From IMG/VR virus record IMGVR_UViG_3300035156_000156, positions 1 through 64,000 of that record: DNA of 64,000 bases. One strand, 5' to 3'. Source of the DNA: a virus. Position numbers and translations under genes: made by a program. The notes beneath the pieces were generated by a model that was not told the DNA's origin, searched no databases, and saw only the letters and a program-made list of their open reading frames with translations. How positions within the stretch are numbered: the first letter of the stretch is position 1; every line of letters begins with the position of its first letter. Of the stretch, positions 63 to 62,193 are shown piece by piece.

Positions 63-335
63 ATGGCAGACGAAAACACCGCAGCACCGACGCGCGCCGA
101 ACCGACGGTCGAACACCGCATCAACACCGTGATCATCGGCATTTTGCCGAACGACGAAGACGCGCTGACCGATGGCGCAACCTTCGACGAAGACCTGAAC
201 GCCGACAGCCTCGATATGGTCGAACTGGTCATGGCGGTTGAAGCCGAGTTCGGAATCGACGTTACCGACGAGGAAGCCGAGGCGATCAAGACCGTTGGCG
301 ACCTGCGCCGCTTCGTCGCCGACAAGATCGCGTAA
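63..335 (+). CDS. Acyl carrier protein
   Basis: A 90-residue acidic protein with the ACP signature ADSLDMVEL; Ser49 is the expected 4'-phosphopantetheine attachment site, followed by the usual acidic helix II and a C-terminal helix. The ATG at 63 is chosen because AGGAG lies just upstream; a longer in-frame reading from 36 lacks a ribosome-binding site. ACPs carry acyl chains on a phosphopantetheine arm in fatty acid, lipid A or polyketide synthesis. No phage acyltransferase or ligase partner is visible, so it presumably works with host enzymes. The gene ends 2 bp before the RusA-like gene, so it is probably cotranscribed with it. Bases 1-39 may be the 3' end of an upstream frame stopping at 39. 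Confidence 0.9.
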   Translation: MADENTAAPTRAEPTVEHRINTVIIGILPNDEDALTDGATFDEDLNADSLDMVELVMAVEAEFGIDVTDEEAEAIKTVGDLRRFVADKIA

Positions 336-12156: not shown

Positions 12157-13746
12157 ATGACCGCCACGCCCACGATCGCCTTGCGCCAGCTTGCCGACCT
12201 GACACCGGACCCGGACAACGCCCGCACGCACAGCGATGATCAAGTGGCGCAGATCGCGGCCAGCATCCGCCGGTTCGGCTGGACCAACCCCATGCTGGTG
12301 GACGACGTGATCAGGGCCGGCAACGGCCGGTACGCAGCGGCCCGGCTGATGTACGACGCCGGGGAGCGCATCTATCTCGCGCCGGGCGAAGACCGCGGTG
12401 GCGACGTGCTGCCGATCGGCACGGTGCCCGTGATCGATTGCACCGGGTGGGACGAGGACGAACGCCGCGCCTATGCGCTGGGCGACAATCAGATCGCGCT
12501 CAATGCCGGCTGGGACGAAGCCACGCTGATCGCCAGCCTGCAATCGCTGACGGACACCGACTTCGACTTGGGCGCGATCGGTTTCGATGACGGTGCGCTT
12601 GAAGCCATGATCGCCGCGGCCCAGCCCAAGGAACCAAGCCGCGCCGGCAACATGACCGCCGAGTTCCTGATTGCCCCGTTTACCGTGCTGAATGCGCGCG
12701 AGGGCTGGTGGCAGGATCGCAAGCGCGCTTGGCTGGCGCTGGGCATTCAATCGGAGTTGGGGCGGGGTGAAGGGGCGGTGCCCGACCCGCTTGGCCAAGG
12801 CGGGCTGACGGACAACATGGCGGCGCGGGCCGACGGCAAGAAAACCCGACTGACACCCGGCGGGGCTGGCGGCGGCATGTGGCTCGGGGGTCCAGACGAA
12901 CCGGCGTTTGCGGGTGATCGCAAGAAGGCCAAGGCCACCAGCTTCGACAGCCAAGCAACGCTGAACGCAATCATGGGACAGGGCAACAACAGCGAGGGCG
13001 CTTCGCCCACCGGCACCAGCATCTTCGACCCCGTGCTGTGCGAACTGGCCTATCGGTGGTTCAGCCCGGTGGGTGGCACGGTGCTGGACCCGTTCGCGGG
13101 CGGCTCGGTGCGGGGCATCGTGGCCGCTGCGCTGGGCCGCCGGTACGTCGGCGTCGATCTACGCGGCGAGCAGATCGAGGCCAACCGGGTGCAATGGCCC
13201 GTGGTCGCGCTGGCGCTGGGCAGCGACGCGGAGGCACCCCGGTGGGAAACCGGCGACAGCTTGGCCGTAGTGCCGACGCTGGGCGTGGAGGCCGACTTTG
13301 TGATGACGTGCCCGCCCTATGGCGATCTGGAAGTGTACAGTGACGACCCAGCCGACATCAGCGCAATGAGTGCCGCGGCCTTTGACGATGCGTACCGCGC
13401 GATCATTGCCGCCTCGGTGGCTGCCCTCAAGCCCGATCGATTCGCGTGCTGCGTGGTGGGCGACTATCGCGACAAGCGCGGCATCTATCGCAACTTCGTG
13501 TCGGCGACGATCGATGCGTTCCAAGCTGCCGGGGCCATGCTGTACAACGAAGCGATCTTGATCACCTCGGTCGGTTCGCTACCGATCCGGGCCGGCAAGC
13601 AGTTCAAGGCTGCGCGCAAGCTGGGCAAGACCCATCAGAACGTGCTGGTGTTCGTAAAGGGCGACCCCAAGCGGGCCACCAAGGCGTGCGGCGATGTCGA
13701 TGTGTCGGGCGCGCTTGCGGCAGTCACGCCCGACGAAGACGACTAG
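12157..13746 (+). CDS. ParB-domain / DNA methyltransferase fusion
   Basis: A 529-residue two-domain protein. Residues 1 to about 140 are a ParB/Srx-like nuclease-fold domain (LTPDPDNARTHSDDQVAQIAASIRRFGWTNPMLVDD, then GNGRYAAARL and a GDNQIALN helix). From about 290 it is a class I SAM methyltransferase with motif I LDPFAGGS near 310 and the catalytic TCPPYGD near 384. Such fusions are common in phages and are thought to modify DNA bases, protecting the genome from host restriction; the target site is unknown. The stop codon overlaps, in the shared CTAG, the stop of a leftward gene. Confidence 0.85.
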   Translation: MTATPTIALRQLADLTPDPDNARTHSDDQVAQIAASIRRFGWTNPMLVDDVIRAGNGRYAAARLMYDAGERIYLAPGEDRGGDVLPIGTVPVIDCTGWDEDERRAYALGDNQIALNAGWDEATLIASLQSLTDTDFDLGAIGFDDGALEAMIAAAQPKEPSRAGNMTAEFLIAPFTVLNAREGWWQDRKRAWLALGIQSELGRGEGAVPDPLGQGGLTDNMAARADGKKTRLTPGGAGGGMWLGGPDEPAFAGDRKKAKATSFDSQATLNAIMGQGNNSEGASPTGTSIFDPVLCELAYRWFSPVGGTVLDPFAGGSVRGIVAAALGRRYVGVDLRGEQIEANRVQWPVVALALGSDAEAPRWETGDSLAVVPTLGVEADFVMTCPPYGDLEVYSDDPADISAMSAAAFDDAYRAIIAASVAALKPDRFACCVVGDYRDKRGIYRNFVSATIDAFQAAGAMLYNEAILITSVGSLPIRAGKQFKAARKLGKTHQNVLVFVKGDPKRATKACGDVDVSGALAAVTPDEDD

Positions 13747-14018
13747 GCCGACAGGCCGGCCAGCGCGGCCAGCTTGGGCGACACGTCCAGCGTGTAGCCG
13801 CGCTTGCTGATCGCATAGACGATCGCCTTGCGGCCGAACTGTGACTTGGTGTTCAACTCGGCCGCGGCTGCCATGGCGGCGGCATAGTCGGGCAGGCCGC
13901 GCACGGTGTGCCGCTGGCCGGGGCCAAGGTGCAAGCAGGCCGTGAACTCGGTGGCCGTCTTGATGTCCTCGGCGATCATCAGGTCTTCGGGGTGCGGTGC
14001 TTTTGGGGCCTTGGCCAT
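13743..14018 (-). CDS. Hypothetical protein under its own control module
   Basis: A 91-residue basic protein. The ATG at 14018 is preferred over an upstream in-frame reading to 14117 because AAGGAT lies just before it. It is convergent with the methyltransferase gene and its leader carries the palindrome and hairpin seen before several leftward genes near 51 kb, which suggests shared regulation. The helical middle and AISKRGYTLDVSP end match no family that I recognise. Confidence 0.65.
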   Translation of the reverse strand: MAKAPKAPHPEDLMIAEDIKTATEFTACLHLGPGQRHTVRGLPDYAAAMAAAAELNTKSQFGRKAIVYAISKRGYTLDVSPKLAALAGLSA

Positions 14019-14117
14019 GGTGCAGATCCTTGCGTCGGGTGGTGGGTGGCCTTTGGCCTTGGGCATCAGATAGCAAAGGGCGCGGCGCGGTGGGAGTGCT
14101 ATGTGCGGGCACCGCAA
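14019..14117 (-). promoter_or_regulatory. Leftward promoter/leader module, copy 1
   Basis: Read leftward, TTTGCGG-TGC-CCGCA (palindrome at 14104-14116) is followed by a leader with a short inverted repeat GGCC-TTT-GGCC at 14048-14058 and an AAGGAT ribosome-binding site. The same order occurs upstream of three genes at 50-52 kb. The distance between palindrome and hairpin is longer here (about 46 bp instead of 27-28). Confidence 0.5.
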
Positions 14118-16567: not shown

Positions 16568-16735
16568 ATGAAATCGACCGTTGGGCTAGTCTTCGCTCTT
16601 GCCGTATCCGTTGGCGTCATCGCCTGCACCGAGGATCGCCCAGCGCCGGGCAGCACGCCGCCGTCGGAACAGCCGACTACGGGCGGTCCTTGCGGCGACG
16701 GCTCCTACCCCCGCGGCGACGAGAAGTGCCGCTGA
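16568..16735 (+). CDS. Small lipoprotein
   Basis: A 55-residue protein with a Lys start, a hydrophobic signal segment and a lipobox-like VIAC at about residues 17-20, followed by a Pro/Gly-rich acidic tail that holds two further Cys residues. It should be exported and lipidated, then anchored to a membrane. The ATG at 16568 has AAGGGG upstream. Phage lipoproteins can block superinfection or serve as spanin parts; its place far from the lysis genes favours the first idea, but this is inference. Confidence 0.6.
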   Translation: MKSTVGLVFALAVSVGVIACTEDRPAPGSTPPSEQPTTGGPCGDGSYPRGDEKCR

Positions 16736-16772
16736 CGATTGACCGCCGCATGGGCCTGCGGCACACCCCGAT

Positions 16773-16846
16773 CGCGCGGTAGATCAGTCGGGTAGATCGT
16801 TCGGTTCATCGCCGAAAGGCCATCGGTTCAAATCCGATCTGCGCAA
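16773..16846 (+). tRNA. Initiator-like tRNA-Met (anticodon CAU)
   Basis: A full cloverleaf can be drawn: acceptor CGCGCGG/CTGCGCA, D arm GATC-9-GATC, anticodon stem TTCGG/CCGAA with loop TTCATCG (anticodon CAT at 16807-16809), variable AGGCC, T arm ATCGG-TTCAAAT-CCGAT. Two hallmarks of bacterial initiator tRNA are present: the unpaired C1-A72 end and an A11-T24 pair in the D stem; two of the three G-C anticodon-stem pairs are in the initiator order. Departures are C at position 37, G at 38, C29-G41, and ACGA rather than ACCA at the 3' end, so CCA would have to be added. Confidence 0.75.
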
Positions 16847-47715: not shown

Positions 47716-48111
47716 CTATGGCTCGGTGTCCCACCCGAACAGCTTGTCGATCGCGGCAACATCGATTCGGCCTTCGTCGGCACCGCGCCGGGCGCGCGTC
47801 ACCATGGCAGCCCAGAACCTGTCGAAGCGCAGCAGCAGCGCGTCGTCCCAACCGTGCCGCTTGGCCTGCCGGAAAAACCGATGATAGGCGCGCCGGGCCG
47901 CAGATCGCGGCGGCACGTGGGCGCGCCAGTGGGTCGCGCACAGCCATTGATCGTCGGCCAGTGCACCGCCCGGCGCGGCGGTGGTGCGGGTGCAGCCCTC
48001 GATCGCACACGGGTTGCGCTTGGTGTGCGCCACGCACCGCGCGCTGTCGCGCTCGCCATAGCCCTGCCCTGCCCCACAGCATCGGCATGCAAAGGGCTGT
48101 CCGGTAATCAC
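47716..48111 (-). CDS. Zinc-binding hypothetical protein
   Basis: A 131-residue protein with CRCCG near the start, then CAIEGC and CATHW, which could hold two zinc ions. The C-terminal part is helical and basic. The GTG at 48111 overlaps the stop of the DnaA-like gene by 4 bp and is preferred to an upstream start. Function unknown; tight coupling to the DnaA-domain gene suggests a DNA-related role. Confidence 0.65.
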   Translation of the reverse strand: MITGQPFACRCCGAGQGYGERDSARCVAHTKRNPCAIEGCTRTTAAPGGALADDQWLCATHWRAHVPPRSAARRAYHRFFRQAKRHGWDDALLLRFDRFWAAMVTRARRGADEGRIDVAAIDKLFGWDTEP

Positions 48112-48413
48112 GCCGCCGCCTTGTCCATCGCCTTGCGGATACGCTTGCACAGCGCGGCGTATCGCTTGTCGTTCGCGCGCATATCACCAGCGCGGCGCAC
48201 GGCATTTATGATCGTGGTGTGATCGCGCTTACCGACAGCTTCGGCGATTTCGGACAGCGATACCTTGGCGGATTCGCGTATCGCCAAAATGATCGCAAAC
48301 CGGCCGTGCGCCAAACGAGGATAGCGCGACCGACTAATCACGTCGTCATATGTCATGCCCGCAGCGCGTGCGCCGGCCGCGATGACCTCGGGCCGCAACG
48401 CCGCCCGGCTCAC
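48108..48413 (-). CDS. Stand-alone DnaA domain IV-like protein
   Basis: A 101-residue protein that aligns along its length with the C-terminal DNA-binding domain of DnaA: VISRSRYPRLAHGRFAIILAI, then SLSEIAEAVGKRDHTTIINAV. KRDHTT at 62-67 corresponds to the GRDHTT signature that contacts the DnaA box. There is no AAA+ or oligomerisation domain. It could mark the phage origin, compete with host DnaA at oriC or DnaA-controlled promoters, or act as a repressor. Coupled by 4-bp overlaps to both neighbours. Confidence 0.85.
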   Translation of the reverse strand: MSRAALRPEVIAAGARAAGMTYDDVISRSRYPRLAHGRFAIILAIRESAKVSLSEIAEAVGKRDHTTIINAVRRAGDMRANDKRYAALCKRIRKAMDKAAA

Positions 48414-48613
48414 TTCTTCGGCCGCCAGCCATTAGCGAACTGGCGCAACACCATCTGCGCCAAGGTGCCGGCCCGTATCTTGCCCTCAAGCCAATCGTAG
48501 AACGTTCGCTTGCCGACCGATCCTTGCAGCAGCGTCAGCACTTCGGCCACGGTCTTAGACTTGGTGGACTCCACGGCGGCCTTGGCCAGCGCGGCGGTTT
48601 CGGGATGCTTCAT
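48410..48613 (-). CDS. Small putative HTH protein
   Basis: A 67-residue protein whose KTVAEVLTLLQGSVGKRTFYDWLEGKI region looks like a helix-turn-helix. It ends in a 4-bp overlap with the DnaA-like gene and starts in one with the gene before, so the three are probably one unit. DNA binding likely, target unknown. Confidence 0.6.
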   Translation of the reverse strand: MKHPETAALAKAAVESTKSKTVAEVLTLLQGSVGKRTFYDWLEGKIRAGTLAQMVLRQFANGWRPKK

Positions 48614-48846
48614 CGTACCAATACCTCGGATTGGGGGTGTGCAAATATGCCCTCGCGCTTGCCGCGGTACGGGCCGTCGATCACGTCCACCACCACGATC
48701 CACGCCACGGCTTCGCGACGGGACTCGGGGTGGACGATGGGGGTGCTGTGGCTGGGCCGGTTGCTGGCGACCACGCCCAAGCAGTTGTGCGACAGCGATA
48801 CGCGATCACCTGCCGCCAGATCGCGCACCAGCACCCGGCGCGGCAT
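48610..48846 (-). CDS. Small beta-rich hypothetical protein
   Basis: A 78-residue protein with alternating hydrophobic residues and a GDRVSLSHNCLGVVAS segment, as in small barrel domains. ATG at 48846 used; a TTG at 48852 is possible. No family recognised. Confidence 0.6.
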   Translation of the reverse strand: MPRRVLVRDLAAGDRVSLSHNCLGVVASNRPSHSTPIVHPESRREAVAWIVVVDVIDGPYRGKREGIFAHPQSEVLVR

Positions 48847-48865
48847 CAGCAACGCCCCCGCATTG

Positions 48866-49060
48866 TCACAGTACGAAGATCGTAAAGCCGATCAGCACCG
48901 CGAACAACGCGGTGTAGCGCAATCCATCGGTGATTTCCTCGGGCGCTACGCCGAACAGGTCGCCAAGGCTTTCGCGCATGCGGTAAGCCTGAACGCCGAA
49001 CGTGATCAGCAGAGCGATCACCAGCATGGCGGAAACAATGGTGGCGGCTTGTTCGGTCAT
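48866..49060 (-). CDS. Small membrane protein
   Basis: A 64-residue protein with two predicted spans (about 5-25 and 47-64). AAGGAGGT lies 6 bp before the ATG, a near-perfect ribosome-binding site. Role unknown. Confidence 0.65.
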   Translation of the reverse strand: MTEQAATIVSAMLVIALLITFGVQAYRMRESLGDLFGVAPEEITDGLRYTALFAVLIGFTIFVL

Positions 49061-49251
49061 TTCAGTACCTCCTTGGCTAGTGGCCGACCTTGCGCGGTCA
49101 GCCGATAGCCGAGTGCTTCTTCGTCGTCGTCGGCGGGGTGTTCCGTGGCCAGACCAAGCGCCCACAGGGCTTGAAGCGGGGCGCTGTCGAACCGCACCCT
49201 GATCACACCGCAGTCGCGCAACTGGCGCAGGGCGGCGAGCTGGTCAGACAT
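49057..49251 (-). CDS. Small putative winged-helix protein
   Basis: A 64-residue protein (DQLAALRQLRDCGVIRVRFD ... LGYRLTAQGRPLAKEVL) that fits a short winged-helix pattern. It overlaps the membrane-protein gene by 4 bp. No family recognised. Confidence 0.5.
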   Translation of the reverse strand: MSDQLAALRQLRDCGVIRVRFDSAPLQALWALGLATEHPADDDEEALGYRLTAQGRPLAKEVLK

Positions 49252-49453
49252 CGACCGAGACGCGATCCGGCAGGCCATCCGGCACGGGTATGGCGACCGA
49301 GCCAAGGCCGCCGAACGAATTGGAGTTCGCCACCTCGGCGTCGGCGCGCTCTTTGGTGTAGCGGCCCGCCTCCACGATGCGCATCGTGTAGCCGCGGGCG
49401 TAAGGCCGCCACCAAGCGCCATGCTTCTCGGACCAGATCAGATATTCGCCCAT
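49244..49453 (-). CDS. Hypothetical protein
   Basis: A 69-residue protein rich in Trp, Tyr and Gly near its start (SEKHGAWWRPYARGYT) with a small beta pattern, recalling DUF-type phage proteins of about this size. It overlaps the next gene by 8 bp and shares a base with the stop of the gene before. Confidence 0.65.
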   Translation of the reverse strand: MGEYLIWSEKHGAWWRPYARGYTMRIVEAGRYTKERADAEVANSNSFGGLGSVAIPVPDGLPDRVSVDV

Positions 49454-49701
49454 CAGTTCACCCCTTCTTCACGGCCGAGCCGCGGCATCGTGATGCCGCC
49501 GTTGCGATGCTTGGCCCCGCACTTCCTGTTGATGCACACCTTGCCGCCGCCGCACAGCGACCACACGAATGCCCGGCTGACTGTGCCGCAGAACGGGCAC
49601 TCGATGTCTTCGTATCGCTTGCCTAGCCCGGTGTAGCCGCCCGTCGCGATCACCTTGTGCCTGCGCATGGCGTTTTCGCTGCGGTTGTAAGGATCGGCCA
49701 T
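49453..49701 (-). CDS. Small zinc-ribbon protein
   Basis: An 82-residue protein with ECPFCGT and, 20 residues on, VCINRKCG: a four-Cys zinc ribbon flanked by basic residues. Probably nucleic-acid binding. A 60-bp gap separates it from the gene before. Confidence 0.7.
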   Translation of the reverse strand: MADPYNRSENAMRRHKVIATGGYTGLGKRYEDIECPFCGTVSRAFVWSLCGGGKVCINRKCGAKHRNGGITMPRLGREEGVN

Positions 49702-49761
49702 CGTTGCTTCCTATGTGCTGGTGCCAGTGGGCGGGTCGCTCGCGCGGCCCGCCGGTTGGTA

Positions 49762-50304
49762 TCAGGCGCGGTTCACTGCGATGCCCAAGGCGTGCAACTC
49801 GTCGTCGTCAGCCCCGGAGACAAGGGCTTGCAACAGGTCGGCATGATCTGACGCGTTGTCGGCCAGCACCTGATCGGCGTGCGCCTGTAGGGCGGCCCGG
49901 ACGCGAGCCGCATAGGCGGTACGCTCGGCCAGTTCCTTGGCGGCTTCTTCCTCGCGATGGGCTTGCTGGCCAAGTTCGAATAGGCCATGCGCCTCGGCTT
50001 CGTTCAACGCGAGCGCAACGGTGTCGCGGTTGGCCTTGGCGTCGGCGTCGGCGTCGCGATAAGTGGTGTTGCCGCCAATCTTGGTGGCGGTGCCAATCGG
50101 CGGGTTCACGTAAATCGTGCGGCGCTTGGTCGCGCTGCCGATGCGGCTTTCGTGCTTGACCCGATACGGCTTCACGGGTTGGCCGTCCTGCACTTCAAGC
50201 CACACGTGGAAGCGAGCCGATCCATCGGCGGCATCCCACGAAACCGAAATCATCGAATGCGATCCGCTCATCCGCAGACCGGGGGTGGTCGGGCCGCCCT
50301 TCAT
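49762..50304 (-). CDS. Hypothetical protein with helical C-terminal half
   Basis: A 180-residue protein. The first ~80 residues are beta-rich; the rest is an acidic Ala-rich helix (AHREEEAAKELAERTAYAARV). No family recognised. Its ATG overlaps the stop of the 39-residue gene before it. Confidence 0.65.
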   Translation of the reverse strand: MKGGPTTPGLRMSGSHSMISVSWDAADGSARFHVWLEVQDGQPVKPYRVKHESRIGSATKRRTIYVNPPIGTATKIGGNTTYRDADADAKANRDTVALALNEAEAHGLFELGQQAHREEEAAKELAERTAYAARVRAALQAHADQVLADNASDHADLLQALVSGADDDELHALGIAVNRA

Positions 50305-50420
50305 GCTGCACCCATCAGGCGCAGGGCGCGACGGCAGCGCGAGGCGCAGCGGGTGTCACCGGCCAGTTCGGCCGCGTGCATTGTGTATTCCAGCCGGATG
50401 ATCTTCGATTCGGTCGCCAT
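50301..50420 (-). CDS. Very small hypothetical protein behind a control module
   Basis: A 39-residue basic peptide with two Cys residues near its C-terminus. AAGGAGG lies just before the ATG and the stop overlaps the next ATG by 4 bp, so it is likely translated. It is the first gene after control module copy 2. Confidence 0.6.
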   Translation of the reverse strand: MATESKIIRLEYTMHAAELAGDTRCASRCRRALRLMGAA

Positions 50421-50499
50421 GATGGCCTCCTTGGGTGGCGTCGCTCGGTTGCCGAGTCGACGTGATCTGTATGGCCCCGCTGTGCGGTGGCCGCAATAG
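50421..50499 (-). promoter_or_regulatory. Leftward promoter/leader module, copy 2
   Basis: Read leftward: TTGCGG-CCA-CCGCACA (palindrome 50483-50495), a 17-bp interval from TTGCGG to CATACA, then AGATCA, a CTCGG-TTG-CCGAG inverted repeat at 50444-50456, CCACCC and AAGGAGG. A second palindrome, TGCGG-CGG-CCGCA, lies at 50507-50519 in the end of the upstream gene. TTGCGG and CATACA could be -35 and -10 hexamers. Confidence 0.6.
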
Positions 50500-50503
50500 A
50501 TAT

Positions 50504-50911
50504 TTATGCGGCGGCCGCAATGCGGCGGCGGTCGCAGTAGTTCGTACCTTCGACCAAAATCTTGGCGGCCATCAGGTCAGCGCGCGGGCGGGCGGCTTCG
50601 CGGTCCTCGGCGTTGAAGGTGTCCAGAATGTTGCACATCTGCTGAAACGAAGCCTGCGCGATTTCGCCTGACCCCCTCGCGCCACGCCACGCCTGCGCGA
50701 ACTCGATCAGGGCAGCGCCACGGGTCAGCCGGCGATTGTTGCGAGCCTGCTTGCACGCTGGGGTGCAGAACGTGGGCATCGGCCCCTTGGCGCTCTTGCG
50801 CACCACCGCGCCCCCGCACTCCGGGCACACGCGCTCGGCGGCGCGCTGGGCGATCGTCGGCTTGACGGCCTTGGCGGGCTTGGCGGCGGCGGGTGCGGTG
50901 GCGGTGGTCAT
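50504..50911 (-). CDS. Zinc-finger hypothetical protein
   Basis: A 135-residue protein with a Lys/Ala/Pro-rich N-terminus, then VCPECGG and FCTPACKQARNNRR, a four-Cys zinc site followed by a basic helix. A nucleic-acid-binding role is likely. The ATG at 50911 has AGGAG upstream; a longer reading to 51001 would run through the control module. Confidence 0.7.
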   Translation of the reverse strand: MTTATAPAAAKPAKAVKPTIAQRAAERVCPECGGAVVRKSAKGPMPTFCTPACKQARNNRRLTRGAALIEFAQAWRGARGSGEIAQASFQQMCNILDTFNAEDREAARPRADLMAAKILVEGTNYCDRRRIAAAA

Positions 50912-50989
50912 GGGGTAGGCTCCTTGGGTGGCCGACTCGCTTTGCGATGTCGCCTGATCTGCATGCCCTATCTGTGCGGGCACCGCAAA
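50912..50989 (-). promoter_or_regulatory. Leftward promoter/leader module, copy 3
   Basis: Read leftward: TTGCGG-TGC-CCGCACA (palindrome 50975-50987), 17 bp from TTGCGG to CATGCA, AGATCA, a TCGC-TTT-GCGA inverted repeat at 50937-50947, CACCC and AAGGAG. It matches copies 2 and 4 in order and spacing. Confidence 0.6.
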
Positions 50990-51000
50990 GCCTTTCCGCA

Positions 51001-51009
51001 TAAAGCGGG
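51001..51009 (+). repeat. TAAAGCGGG element copy
   Basis: CCGCATAAAGCGGG lies just upstream of control module copy 3, in the same relative place as the copy at 52053 before module copy 4. Confidence 0.45.
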
Positions 51010-51043
51010 AAAGAAAACGGCGGACGAAGCCGCCGCAGGTGGG

Positions 51044-51277
51044 TCACTGGTCGGCAGCGCGCAGCATATCGAAACCGCGGTCGCGCAGCGTGGCCTTCAA
51101 CTCGCCCAGCAAGACGCTGGACAGTGCGGCGTCGTCGCTGTCCGTCACGCGCCACACGCCAGCGACCTTGGCGACGTGCAGGCGCTGGTCGCCGCGAATC
51201 GCGACATATCTGCCGGGCTGCGGTTTGGGTTGGCGAGGCGTCGAAAAGAAGCCGTTAAGGGTTCGGGATAGGGTCAT
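51044..51277 (-). CDS. Hypothetical protein
   Basis: A 77-residue basic, beta-rich protein with no family recognised. ATG at 51277 with GAGGAA upstream. The gap to the gene before is filled by a 9-bp GC hairpin rather than a promoter module. Confidence 0.6.
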   Translation of the reverse strand: MTLSRTLNGFFSTPRQPKPQPGRYVAIRGDQRLHVAKVAGVWRVTDSDDAALSSVLLGELKATLRDRGFDMLRAADQ

Positions 51278-51296
51278 CGGTGGTTCCTCGGTGGTG

Positions 51297-51318
51297 GGGC
51301 GGGGCGTGCGCCCCGCCC
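51297..51318. other. GC hairpin between leftward genes
   Basis: GGGCGGGGC and GCCCCGCCC form a perfect 9-bp stem with a GTGC loop between two leftward genes. On the leftward strand no T-run follows, so an mRNA-stabilising or processing role is more likely than termination. Confidence 0.5.
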
Positions 51319-51323
51319 GCGTT

Positions 51324-51566
51324 TTACAGGTCGGCCGCTTCGTTGATCGACATCGCGACGCCGGTGGCATCAGTGATGCGCTTCGCCATAGCGTCGGCAG
51401 CCGCGCGATCCGCCAGCGGGAAACGGTAAGCATCCTTGAACCCGGCAGCGGCCAGCCGGGCGCGCTCGTCGGCAGCACGTGCCCGCCGCTGGTCGCGAGG
51501 TTCGGCGTTGATGAACTTGCGCGACACGGACCAATAGGCCGGGGTAGGTTTGCCCATATTGAACAT
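51324..51566 (-). CDS. Hypothetical protein
   Basis: An 80-residue basic helical protein (RRARAADERARLAAAGFKDAY) ending in an acidic segment. ATG at 51566 chosen because AAGGAGT lies 8 bp upstream. No family recognised. Confidence 0.6.
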   Translation of the reverse strand: MFNMGKPTPAYWSVSRKFINAEPRDQRRARAADERARLAAAGFKDAYRFPLADRAAADAMAKRITDATGVAMSINEAADL

Positions 51567-51642
51567 GCTCGATACTCCTTGGGTGGTGCAGACGGGTCGC
51601 CCGGTCTGCGGTTGGTGGCGGGGCCGAAGCCCCGCCGGGAGA
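51567..51642 (-). promoter_or_regulatory. Leader with two hairpins before the 80-residue gene
   Basis: Read leftward: GGCGGGGC-TTCG-GCCCCGCC (51617-51636), a stem capped by the very stable cUUCGg tetraloop, then GCAGAC-x-GGG/CCC-GTCTGC (51588-51609), then CCACCC and AAGGAGT. The second hairpin and the CCACCC-AAGGAG sequence match the leaders of control modules 2-4, but no TGCGG palindrome is present. Confidence 0.5.
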
Positions 51643-51963
51643 TTAGGCGAAAAACAGGCCGTTTTCCTTGTGGAACCGGCCCGAGCGATCGTCGCGGCCG
51701 AACCATGCGGTCTGGCGGGCGGGGCGGCCATTCTCGGCCGGGAAGCAGGTGATCGAAGCGGGCCACACCTTTGCGCCCTGCTCGTACCGGCCACTCAAGC
51801 CCGACACGTACACGTTGGCGCTGTCTTCGTAAGTGCGCGCCGGGCAACGCTGGGTCTTGCCGCGCAGCGTCACTTCGACGGTTGCCAGCTTGGCGACGCC
51901 TGCGCGAGTCTCTACGATTTCGCCGGTGAAGGTGAGGCTGTCGAGGTTCACGAGGTTGGTCAT
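51643..51963 (-). CDS. Hypothetical protein
   Basis: A 106-residue beta-rich protein (SLTFTGEIVETRAGVAKLATVEVTL), possibly a small OB- or barrel-type fold. AAGGAG lies before the ATG at 51963. It is the first gene after module copy 4. No family recognised. Confidence 0.6.
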   Translation of the reverse strand: MTNLVNLDSLTFTGEIVETRAGVAKLATVEVTLRGKTQRCPARTYEDSANVYVSGLSGRYEQGAKVWPASITCFPAENGRPARQTAWFGRDDRSGRFHKENGLFFA

Positions 51964-52041
51964 GGTAGGCTCCTTCGGGTGGGGCGACTCGGTGTCCGAT
52001 GCCGCTTGATCTGTGTGCCCGAAGTGTGCGGTGCCCGCAAC
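51964..52041 (-). promoter_or_regulatory. Leftward promoter/leader module, copy 4
   Basis: Read leftward: TTGCGG-GCA-CCGCACA (palindrome 52027-52039), 17 bp to CACACA, AGATCA, a TCGG-TGT-CCGA inverted repeat at 51989-51999, CCACCC and AAGGAG. Order and spacing agree with copies 2 and 3. Confidence 0.6.
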
Positions 52042-52048
52042 ACCTTTC

Positions 52049-52066
52049 CGCATAAAGCGGGTATTA
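52049..52066 (+). repeat. 18-bp inverted repeat, right copy (TAAAGCGGG family)
   Basis: CGCATAAAGCGGGTATTA is the exact reverse complement of 47546-47563. It lies between module copy 4 and the rightward secreted-protein gene. Confidence 0.55.
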
Positions 52067-52094
52067 TTTCAGCCCCGGACAAGCGAGCCGGGCG

Positions 52095-52107
52095 TGCGGG
52101 GGCCGCA
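52095..52107. promoter_or_regulatory. TGCGG-N3-CCGCA palindrome before the moron gene
   Basis: TGCGG-GGG-CCGCA is a further copy of the palindrome, without the rest of the leftward module. It lies 115 bp before the rightward gene and may let the same regulator control that gene. Confidence 0.45.
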
Positions 52108-52222
52108 CCGTGCCGATCCACTCGCCGCAGCGGCTGTTGGGCCGGAAATCGCGATCGGGATGCGCGAGCGTTTCGGCCGTGCTATGCGCAGGCATCGCCA
52201 ACGCCACGCAACGGGGTGTCCC

Positions 52223-53464
52223 ATGATCCGCAACTATCTCGCCGCCGCCCTTCTGCTTGTCGGGGCCACCCCCGCCAGCGCGCAGATCACCACATACATC
52301 GGCCCCGATCGCAAGCCGCAGACGGTGGACGCCGCCCACCCGCTGCCCGTCACCTCGGCCAGTGGTGGCGGCACCGCGGGCGGCGCGACCGCCGCCAATC
52401 AGACCACGCAGATCACCGCCGAGCAGGACACGCGCGATCGGCTTGGTGCCACCAGCGCCCCGGCTGCGGGCACCGTCAACGCGCAGCTTGGTGCGATCCG
52501 CACCGCGCTCGGCACCCCGGCACAGGCTGGCGGTCCGGTCAGCATCACCGGGGCCGTTCCATTGCCCACGGGCGCGGCTACCGCGGCGCGACAGGACGCA
52601 ATGCTGACGGCCCTTGGCACTCCGTTGCAGGCTGGCGGTTCGGTGAGTGTCGCGGGGACAGTTGCAACGGCGCTTGACGGCATCACGGACGGCGCAGCGA
52701 CTCCCTTTAGCGTCGCGGCTCCGGTGACGGCGGGCGGCAACGTCGTCGCGTCCACCAACGTGACCGGCTATTCGTCGCTGTTCCTCTACCTGACCAGCAT
52801 TCAGACCAGCGGTGCAACGCTAACGCTTCAGCAGAGCTACGATAACACCAACTGGATTTCTGTTTTCGGGCAGAACCCGAACACGAATAACAGCTTGGGT
52901 TCCACCCAGACGGTCGGCACCTTCGCGCCTTATTTCTACCAAATCCAAGCGCCTTACATTCGGATCATTCAAAACGGCACGGGCACGGCGGGCACGACTA
53001 CGGGCACGATTGTCCTCAAGCGCCAAGCCTATGCGCCGCAGACGTACGGGCAGACCACGGCGATCATCACGGCGGCGGGCGCAAACATCAAAATGGACGC
53101 CACCGCCGGGACCGGCTTTCCGGCTTCGACCGCGTTCCAATTGCTGTCGGCCGCGACCACCAATGCGACTGTGGTGAAGGCATCCGCCGGGAAGCTGGTC
53201 TATGGCTCGATCGCGAACCTGTCGGCCGCGGTGAAGTTCGTGCGGTTCTACGCCACGGCAGCCGTGCCGGTGCCCGGAACCACGGCGCAAGTCCGCGTCG
53301 TCGCAGTGCCACCGAACACGACGATCGGTATTCCGTCGGTGCTGGGCGCGTTCGGCATGTACTTTTCGACCGGCATCGCGATCTCGATCACGGGCGGCGC
53401 GGCCACGGCCGACACCACCCCGGTCGCCGCTGGCGATGTGCTGGTGGACCTCGGCTACCTGTAA
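52223..53464 (+). CDS. Secreted beta-rich protein (moron gene)
   Basis: A 413-residue protein with a signal peptide (MIRNYLAAALLLVGATPASA, cleavage after SAQ or ASA), then a Gly/Thr/Ala-rich region with three related AxLGTPxQAGGxVSxxG repeats (about 80-150), and a beta-rich C-terminal part (SLFLYLTSIQTSGATLTLQQ). Exported, possibly to the cell surface. It is the only rightward gene in a leftward arm and has its own upstream elements and terminator, as morons do. Its lower GC stretches differ from neighbours. It could alter the host surface; function unknown. Confidence 0.7.
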   Translation: MIRNYLAAALLLVGATPASAQITTYIGPDRKPQTVDAAHPLPVTSASGGGTAGGATAANQTTQITAEQDTRDRLGATSAPAAGTVNAQLGAIRTALGTPAQAGGPVSITGAVPLPTGAATAARQDAMLTALGTPLQAGGSVSVAGTVATALDGITDGAATPFSVAAPVTAGGNVVASTNVTGYSSLFLYLTSIQTSGATLTLQQSYDNTNWISVFGQNPNTNNSLGSTQTVGTFAPYFYQIQAPYIRIIQNGTGTAGTTTGTIVLKRQAYAPQTYGQTTAIITAAGANIKMDATAGTGFPASTAFQLLSAATTNATVVKASAGKLVYGSIANLSAAVKFVRFYATAAVPVPGTTAQVRVVAVPPNTTIGIPSVLGAFGMYFSTGIAISITGGAATADTTPVAAGDVLVDLGYL

Positions 53465-61571: not shown

Positions 61572-61922
61572 TCAGTTGTCGTCGCGCGCGGCGGCCATCG
61601 CCTCGCGACGTGCGGTTGCGATTTCGCCCGGCACCAGCCGGGCCGTGCCCACCTTCTCGCCCTCGTCGCGGCGCACCCGGATATAGATTTCGCTTGCCCG
61701 GCCCTTGAACACAAAGACGACCTTGCAGCCGTAGCCCCACGGCATCACCGCTTCGACCAACACCAGCGCGCGATAATATGCGTGCGCCTCGGCAGTCACC
61801 TGCACGATGTCGCCCGGAAAGATCGGGGCAGGTTTCGGTTCAACTGGCGCGGCGGTTTCAGGCACTGACGAACTCCGGGTGGGCCGCTCGTTTGTATGAG
61901 TCGGGCCGTTCGTTTGGGCCAT
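61572..61922 (-). CDS. Hypothetical protein, first gene of the leftward arm
   Basis: A 116-residue protein: a disordered Thr/Pro N-terminus, then a beta-rich domain (GDIVQVTAEAHAYYRALVLVEAVM; CKVVFVFKGRASEIYIRVR). ATG at 61922 faces the HTH gene across a 70-bp divergent region. No family recognised. Confidence 0.6.
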   Translation of the reverse strand: MAQTNGPTHTNERPTRSSSVPETAAPVEPKPAPIFPGDIVQVTAEAHAYYRALVLVEAVMPWGYGCKVVFVFKGRASEIYIRVRRDEGEKVGTARLVPGEIATARREAMAAARDDN

Positions 61923-61992: not shown

Positions 61993-62193
61993 ATGACCAG
62001 CGAAGAAGCCATCCAATCGATCGAGGACCGGGCCTATGCGGCCCGCATCACGATCGCCGCCCTATGCGCCGAAGCCAAGGTGCACCACGCCTCTTGGTCG
62101 CGCGCCAAGGGCAACCGACGCATCGGTGTGCGCCTGTTAAGCCGGCTAGAAGGCGCGCTTGATCAGATCGAGCGCGCCCGGAAGACCGCATAA
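61993..62193 (+). CDS. HTH repressor-like protein
   Basis: A 66-residue protein with a helix-turn-helix pattern (AYAARITIAALCAEAKVHHASWSRAKGNRRIG) and a C-terminal helix (RLLSRLEGALDQIERAR). Size and fold fit a Cro-like autoregulator controlling the divergent promoters next to it. No ribosome-binding site is present before its ATG, in line with a leaderless transcript. Confidence 0.65.
   Translation: MTSEEAIQSIEDRAYAARITIAALCAEAKVHHASWSRAKGNRRIGVRLLSRLEGALDQIERARKTA

Follow-up and report, generated by a model that had tools for sequence, protein, structure and literature searches.

A shared operator-promoter and a bulged leader hairpin point to a probable phage-encoded regulon in Erythrobacter phages R6L and ZS04 and their relatives

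Introduction

Why do several leftward transcription units of one phage genome begin with nearly the same leader? The DNA that raises this question is a 64-kb window, positions 1–64,000 of IMG/VR record IMGVR_UViG_3300035156_000156 (64.5 kb in full). A first-pass annotation listed elements common to three of its leaders, and all of these elements were found. It went on to propose that the leaders head separate cassettes under one regulator, that changes in an inverted repeat reflect a selected RNA structure, and that an HTH or DnaA-like protein might bind. Here we compare these leaders with those of related phages and consider which proteins and mechanisms could account for them.

Results

One module precedes three leftward genes

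The pattern TTGCGG-N3-CCGCA-N9-CAYRCAGATCA occurs three times in the 64 kb, always on the minus strand (52007–52040, 50955–50988, and 50463–50496; copies 1, 2, and 3, respectively), and no further site appeared when up to three mismatches were allowed. It had no match in 100 dinucleotide shuffles, and a weight matrix made from the three copies gives them 51–53 bits, compared with 13.6 for the runner-up in the window. On the 3′ side of the module, all three leaders have a hairpin, then CCACCC, and then AAGGAG. Similarity between the leaders peters out within ~20 bp upstream of the palindrome and stops downstream at the start codon.

The 5′ part of the module is best read as a σ70-like promoter (−35 TTGCGG, 17-bp spacer, −10 CAYRCA) with its −35 overlapping a 13-bp operator palindrome. 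For copy 1, this would place the promoter at 52012–52040 (−35 at 52040–52035, 17-bp spacer, −10 CACACA at 52017–52012) and the palindrome TGCGG-GCA-CCGCA, which overlaps the −35, at 52027–52039. A bulged-A hairpin (GCGGC-A-UCGG-ACA-CCGA-GUCGC, 51984–52005) and CCACCC with AAGGAG as the ribosome site (51970–51982) follow on the same minus strand, 5′ of the gene at 51643–51963. The corresponding minus-strand features of copy 2 are a promoter at 50960–50988 (−35 TTGCGG, 17 bp, −10 CATGCA), the palindrome TGCGG-TGC-CCGCA at 50975–50987, the bulged-A hairpin CGAC-A-UCGC-AAA-GCGA-GUCG at 50933–50952, and CCACCCAAGGAG at 50920–50931. Those of copy 3 are a promoter at 50468–50496 (−35 TTGCGG, 17 bp, −10 CATACA), the palindrome TGCGG-CCA-CCGCA at 50483–50495, the bulged-A hairpin CGUCG-A-CUCGG-CAA-CCGAG-CGACG at 50439–50462, and CCACCCAAGGAG at 50427–50438.

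Copies 1 and 2 also have in common an 18-bp block, CCGCTTTATGCGGAAAGG, on the upstream side of the palindrome (52043–52060 and 50991–51008, minus strand). Look-alikes lie shortly upstream of the −35 in related phages (CCGACTTATGCAAAAAG in G003, CCGACTAATGCGTTTTT before R6L gp58, and CGCCTAATGCGGAATT before R6L gp102), and a block of this type is a possible activator or α-subunit site.

Parts of the module recur elsewhere on the minus strand. A second operator palindrome (50507–50519) lies upstream of the copy 3 operator, 24 bp from it, and overlaps the end of g71. A palindrome search of the whole record returned the three module copies and an operator-only copy (14104–14116; reported by that search as 14102–14117) upstream of the gene at 13743–14018; the ZS04 homologue of this gene (42% at the amino acid level; counterpart of R6L gp105) has an operator in its leader too. 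A hairpin-only copy in which the bulge is C (51588–51609) lies 5′ of the gene at 51324–51566 and is followed by ACCACCCAAGGAG at 51587–51575. Finally, a covariance model gives a weak score (14.4 bits) to a degenerate bulged-A hairpin (61878–61907) 5′ of g89, which opens the early leftward operon.

The genes that follow the leaders are also on the minus strand. Unit 1, behind copy 1, has as its first gene that at 51643–51963 (106 amino acids, no family match), followed by genes at 51324–51566 and 51044–51277, and ends in a terminator-like hairpin with a T tail (51017–51036), just upstream of copy 2. Copy 2 leads g71 (50504–50911), which encodes a zinc-ribbon protein (PHROG 20494), and copy 3 leads an operon of tightly packed small genes (47716–50420) that ends in another terminator-like hairpin (47651–47626). 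Since a terminator scan found 5 sites in the window and 3.5 in shuffles, near chance overall, it is their position that marks the two unit-end hairpins as candidate terminators. Comparison of the cassette proteins with family models gave no informative match. Strong GC-rich hairpins that lack a T tail lie between the genes of unit 1 (51590–51640 and 51278–51320; e.g., GGCGGGGCUUCGGCCCCGCC).

Several other genes of the window deserve mention. The gene at 52223–53464 (plus strand) runs rightward among leftward ones and has a signal-peptide-like start, MIRNYLAAALLLVGATPASAQ; a similar gene in G003 is divergent from the g71 leader, and the product is possibly an exported phage protein. At 63–335 (plus strand), a gene that adjoins the RusA-type gene encodes an acyl-carrier-like protein that ends in a DSLDMVELV motif; R6L has the same arrangement, with gp32 annotated as an acyl carrier protein. 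The protein encoded at 12157–13746 (plus strand) has a ParB-like start and is homologous to R6L gp1, which is annotated as a DNA modification methylase.

Six related phages of ~65 kb

By TerL, the nearest named phages are Erythrobacter phages R6L and ZS04 (51% at the amino acid level), and g71 is 59%–61% identical to R6L gp58. Single-sequence searches of IMG/VR with the first cassette protein or with g71 found no relative, and an exact-pattern scan of IMG/VR for the full module of the window returned nothing. An alignment of the g71 proteins, including those of R6L and ZS04, retrieved three IMG/VR phages of 65–68 kb (G001, G002, and G003); widening this alignment added none from IMG/VR or from 84,980 prokaryote genomes. 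A distant homologue of g71 is present in Caulobacter phages. The resulting set consists of six largely collinear phages of ~65 kb, two that infect Erythrobacter (R6L and ZS04) and four IMG/VR contigs that include the window. In a tree built from seven core proteins (2,673 columns), G002 and G003 form one clade and G001, R6L, and ZS04 another, and the window is a long branch of its own, ~59%–61% identical to all others.

A search with the capsid protein found 15 more contigs, many of them short. None of these has g71, one (G006) has two R6L-type leaders with no hairpin, and the best match to the hairpin model among them (in G017) is unlike such a leader. A scan of IMG/VR with the hairpin pattern gave 20 loci, and leader-type matches were confined to G002 and G003; the other loci, which are outside leaders, look like chance matches.

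The operator is concentrated in leaders and differs between phages

The operator-promoter was found in leaders of orthologous genes in all six phages. Among the genes that it leads are the g71 orthologues of R6L, ZS04, G001, and G003; in the R6L gp58 leader, for example, TGCGA-CCA-TCGCA lies on TTGCTG-N16-TAACAC. Palindromes of the form TGC-NN-NNN-NN-GCA are in leader context in 27 of 188 cases, compared with 15 of 600 for the next best of the 64 triplets (five phages, with ZS04 omitted as a near-duplicate of R6L). This concentration argues against the motif being equally common in coding DNA, the finding that the first-pass annotation named as refuting its proposal.

Of 19 operator sites from five phages, 16 allow a −35 beginning with TTG and a −10 at 16–17 bp to be assigned; the operator then starts 1 or 4 bp past the first base of the −35. 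Some of the assigned −10s are poor, and a strict σ70 scan found no promoter. The arms are TGCGG in the window, TGCGA in R6L, ZS04, and G002, TGCCA/G in G003, and TGCRA in G001. The palindrome and the 16–17-bp spacing are kept while the arm letters are nearly uniform inside one phage and different among phages, the pattern expected if the sites share a trans-acting factor. After g71, the leader carries a pair of operators with a 24–25-bp separation; this doubling is seen in the window, R6L, ZS04, and G003 and, imperfectly, in G001, and it suggests cooperative binding. Together, the promoter spacing, the unit-end hairpins, and the leader-enriched palindrome are consistent with separate cassettes under one regulator.

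The leader hairpin has a conserved bulge

RNA folding of the three copies gives a lower stem of 3–5 bp, a bulged A on the 5′ side, an upper stem of 4–5 bp, and a triloop. The first-pass annotation had described a shorter hairpin, one that left out the lower stem and the bulged A. The hairpin begins ~6 nt past the −10 in the window and ~6–9 nt past it across the phages, near the predicted +1, and CCACCC and AAGGAG are largely unpaired in the folded leaders. Transcripts would start at the hairpin or a few bases earlier.

We searched five phages with a structure-only descriptor (one 5′ bulged base, stems of at least 4 bp, a loop of 3–5, then CCACC and a start codon). Leaders matched four times in the window, four times in G002, and twice in G003, and there were no matches in G001 and R6L; a mirror control with the bulge on the 3′ side gave 2 in total across the five phages. 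In 8 of the 10 leaders the bulged base is A, compared with 20% of such bulges genome-wide (p ~9e-5 if the copies were independent, which they are not fully). Three more hairpins were seen by eye (G003 c1, G002 b, and G003 c2), and two of these, G002 b and G003 c2, have a GA/G internal loop instead of the single bulge. Most triloops end in A, and loop size is tolerant. A covariance model built from three sequences recovers more leader copies.

Is the pairing itself selected? The three copies in the window contain one clear double change and by themselves fall short of the covariation first claimed for them, but the relatives supply it. The phages that carry the hairpin (the window, G002, and G003) are deeply diverged (~60% amino acid identity). 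When strands were swapped among 11 hairpins, cognate strands paired at 87 of 88 positions (99%) compared with 62% for swapped strands, and 0 of 100,000 shuffles scored as well; since registers were set by hand, some copies were picked for folding, and the copies are related and so not independent, this partly circular test gives strong support rather than a clean significance value. These data support the hairpin pairing and bulge as a selected RNA structure.

The G001, R6L, and ZS04 clade has the operator system and lacks the hairpin. At several sites with R6L-type leaders, CCACC-GGAG lies ~7–9 nt past the −10, and the hairpin therefore looks like a separable unit placed between the start and CCACC. 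A plain hairpin (GGACGGG-GCAA-CCCGTCC) is found before R6L gp36, directly 5′ of CCCACCACATAGGAG (positions 16703–16840 of R6L); it is a different type of hairpin, in the clade without the bulged one.

At the gathering score, Rfam models matched only a tRNA in the window, and at E values up to 5 nothing relevant was found in 50300–52200; three further sequences compared with Rfam (L010, L011, and L002) gave no match. Two simple readings of the hairpin were rejected: it is not a transcribed copy of the operator, as its letters do not mirror those of the operator arms, and it is not a terminator or attenuator, as it has no T tail.

Candidate regulators

The leading candidate for a repressor of these promoters is g64, a predicted small XRE-type HTH protein of 67 amino acids encoded inside the operon behind copy 3 (48410–48613, minus strand). 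All six phages encode g64 in the operon that begins with the leader after g71. An AlphaFold2 model from four sequences is a four-helix HTH (pLDDT 81) that, among solved structures, best matches HigA2 (Z 8.4) and the anti-CRISPR-associated (Aca) protein Aca7 (Z 7.6; Foldseek TM 0.73, E 1.1). Since XRE folds are common and searches with the g64 sequence matched no family model and no sequence of a solved structure, the likeness is one of fold. The predicted recognition helix, GLRTFRGW, is the same in G002 and G003, whose operators differ at arm position 4; since the helix fails to vary with the arms, the binder may be a protein other than g64.

A second HTH-like protein, g90 (61993–62193, plus strand), is a rival candidate, as an operator adjoins it in two phages: in G002 and G003, the operator lies between g90 and the first early gene, g89. 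Its recognition helix likewise has no simple match to the operator arms, and its single-sequence fold, two long helices only, is not informative. A stand-alone DnaA C-terminal DNA-binding domain is encoded at 48108–48413 (minus strand; Pfam Bac_DnaA_C, E 7.8e-12). It shows no particular link to these leaders, and the DnaA-like protein suggested earlier as a possible regulator is a poorer candidate than the small XRE-type protein behind copy 3.

Discussion

Comparison among the phages shows that the operator palindrome, the spacing of the promoter, and the pairing and bulge of the hairpin are kept and that they lie in leaders. From the position of the palindrome, the near-uniform arms within each phage, the double operator, and the HTH gene in the operon, we infer that several units are repressed; the repressor, the transcription start, and the role of the hairpin proposed here are inferred as well. 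We put the probability at about 0.72 that these leaders belong to a phage-encoded regulon in which an HTH repressor acts on operator-promoters and the 5′ hairpin acts post-transcriptionally. A σ70-like promoter would start each unit, its −35 lying within the operator, a palindrome of 13 bp. The phage repressor that would bind there and shut these promoters, its own included, is most likely g64, and this self-shutoff would provide negative feedback as in acr-aca operons. Transcripts would begin at, or within a few bases of, the bulged-A hairpin, leaving CCACC and the ribosome site single-stranded, and the hairpin would serve either as a protein site that gates translation or as a 5′ shield against RNase E.

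We see about equal odds that the hairpin is a translation operator bound by a protein and that it is a plain stabilizer of the mRNA, since the conserved bulged A favors the former and the absence of the hairpin from the R6L clade and the loose loop size favor the latter. There is a substantial chance, somewhat short of even, that the regulon operates on DNA only and that the hairpin is a generic 5′-terminal stabilizing stem of the ompA or papA type with no specific ligand. Such mRNA-stabilizing stem-loops are established, according to references in PMC3997798. As with ompA and papA, the hairpin here would open the message, given its location at the predicted 5′ end, with the ribosome site accessible, and phages of the R6L clade manage without it. 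However, the bulged A, conserved in 8 of 10 leaders, and the terminal A of most triloops are not needed by a generic stabilizer. We know of no conserved bulge and no coupling to an operator in the ompA and papA stem-loops.

Could one protein recognize both elements? We consider it unlikely, on present analysis, that a single HTH protein binds the DNA palindrome and the RNA hairpin and blocks both transcription and translation of all units, as would an Aca2-like dual DNA/RNA repressor that serves a phage-wide regulon instead of a single operon and whose operator specificity has drifted among phages. Both elements have ~5-bp arms around three bases, and g64 combines an Aca/HigA-like predicted fold with a suitable position in the operon. 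Aca2 itself reportedly represses translation as well, through an RNA stem-loop. The structure of an Aca2-RNA complex has been solved (PMC11239489). However, the letters of the hairpin do not follow the phage-specific letters of the operator, and the R6L clade retains g64 and the operator without the hairpin.

We are more doubtful that the hairpin serves as an antitermination site close to the promoter, of the nut or put kind, at which RNA polymerase is modified so as to read through the long operons. It would open each transcript, ahead of runs of genes, and internal hairpins and terminator-like sites are present. However, no boxA-like sequence was seen by eye, the copy at 51588–51609 precedes an internal gene, and the terminator-like sites with which units end give no hint of read-through. 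Least probable is recent PeSL-like copying of a leader cassette within one genome, kept by descent with no common regulator, since, although copies 1 and 2 share their upstream block and the flanking genes are unrelated, stems, loops, and spacers have diverged yet stayed paired across phages of ~60% protein identity and the operator arms follow the pattern predicted for a shared trans-acting factor.

No known family explains the combination of features; the closest kinds are Aca operators, the SAS/ESAS of cluster K mycobacteriophages, and T4 PeSLs. In Aca operons, a small HTH gene is distal among small genes, and one or two inverted repeats lie in the core promoter (PMC9410906). The leaders described here resemble those of the Aca1–Aca10 families in that a 13-bp palindrome lies inside the core promoter, overlapping the −35 and doubled in one leader, and in that an HTH protein, g64, is encoded in the controlled operon in 6 of 6 phages. 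The predicted g64 fold resembles Aca7 (TM 0.73, Z 7.6), with no sequence match, and XRE folds are common. Unlike in Aca operons, each phage here has several separate units under one operator type, family models recognized no known acr gene among the cassette proteins, and the hairpin sequence is no copy of the operator. A related arrangement is known for anti-defense genes of the archaeal virus SIRV2, where most small early genes have one common promoter and flanking regulatory sequence, with Aca8 as the presumed repressor (PMC11065993); those promoters are of the archaeal TATA/BRE kind, and we know of no leader hairpin described for them.

The Start Associated Sequence (SAS) of cluster K mycobacteriophages is repeated, with a ribosome site, before many non-structural genes, and about half of the copies are extended upstream to ESAS by an inverted repeat whose letters vary by subcluster (PMC3203893). 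The upstream inverted repeats with phage-specific arms found here (TGCGG, TGCGA, TGCCA/G) are similar in kind but not in sequence. At start codons, our leaders have CCACCCAAGGAG or CCACCACGGAG rather than the 13-bp SAS, GGGATAGGAGCCC. The host also differs, ESAS repeats are 17 bp with no bulged hairpin reported, and the palindrome here overlaps the promoter −35. The promoter early stem-loops (PeSLs) of T4-like phages are intergenic cassettes of a promoter and a stem-loop, present in many copies in regions of small genes, and the title of a cited study calls their stem-loops promoter-terminator composites (both as cited in PMC4503421). The hairpin here, unlike PeSLs as characterized in those citations, has no T tail and lies between the promoter and the ribosome site, with terminator-like sites separate from it.

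One leader design that is used in several units, with its letters changed in distant relatives, is the mark in these genomes of a real phage control system, and this system may act on both DNA and RNA. In R6L, neither an integrase nor a repressor was found (PMC5463345). Our findings thus offer a concrete, testable regulon for a group of phages that includes two isolated on marine Erythrobacter and in which no repressor has so far been named. If the hairpin is a protein-binding RNA operator, dual DNA/RNA control would no longer be confined to single acr-aca operons but would cover several units of a phage, and the cassette genes would become candidates for anti-defense functions.
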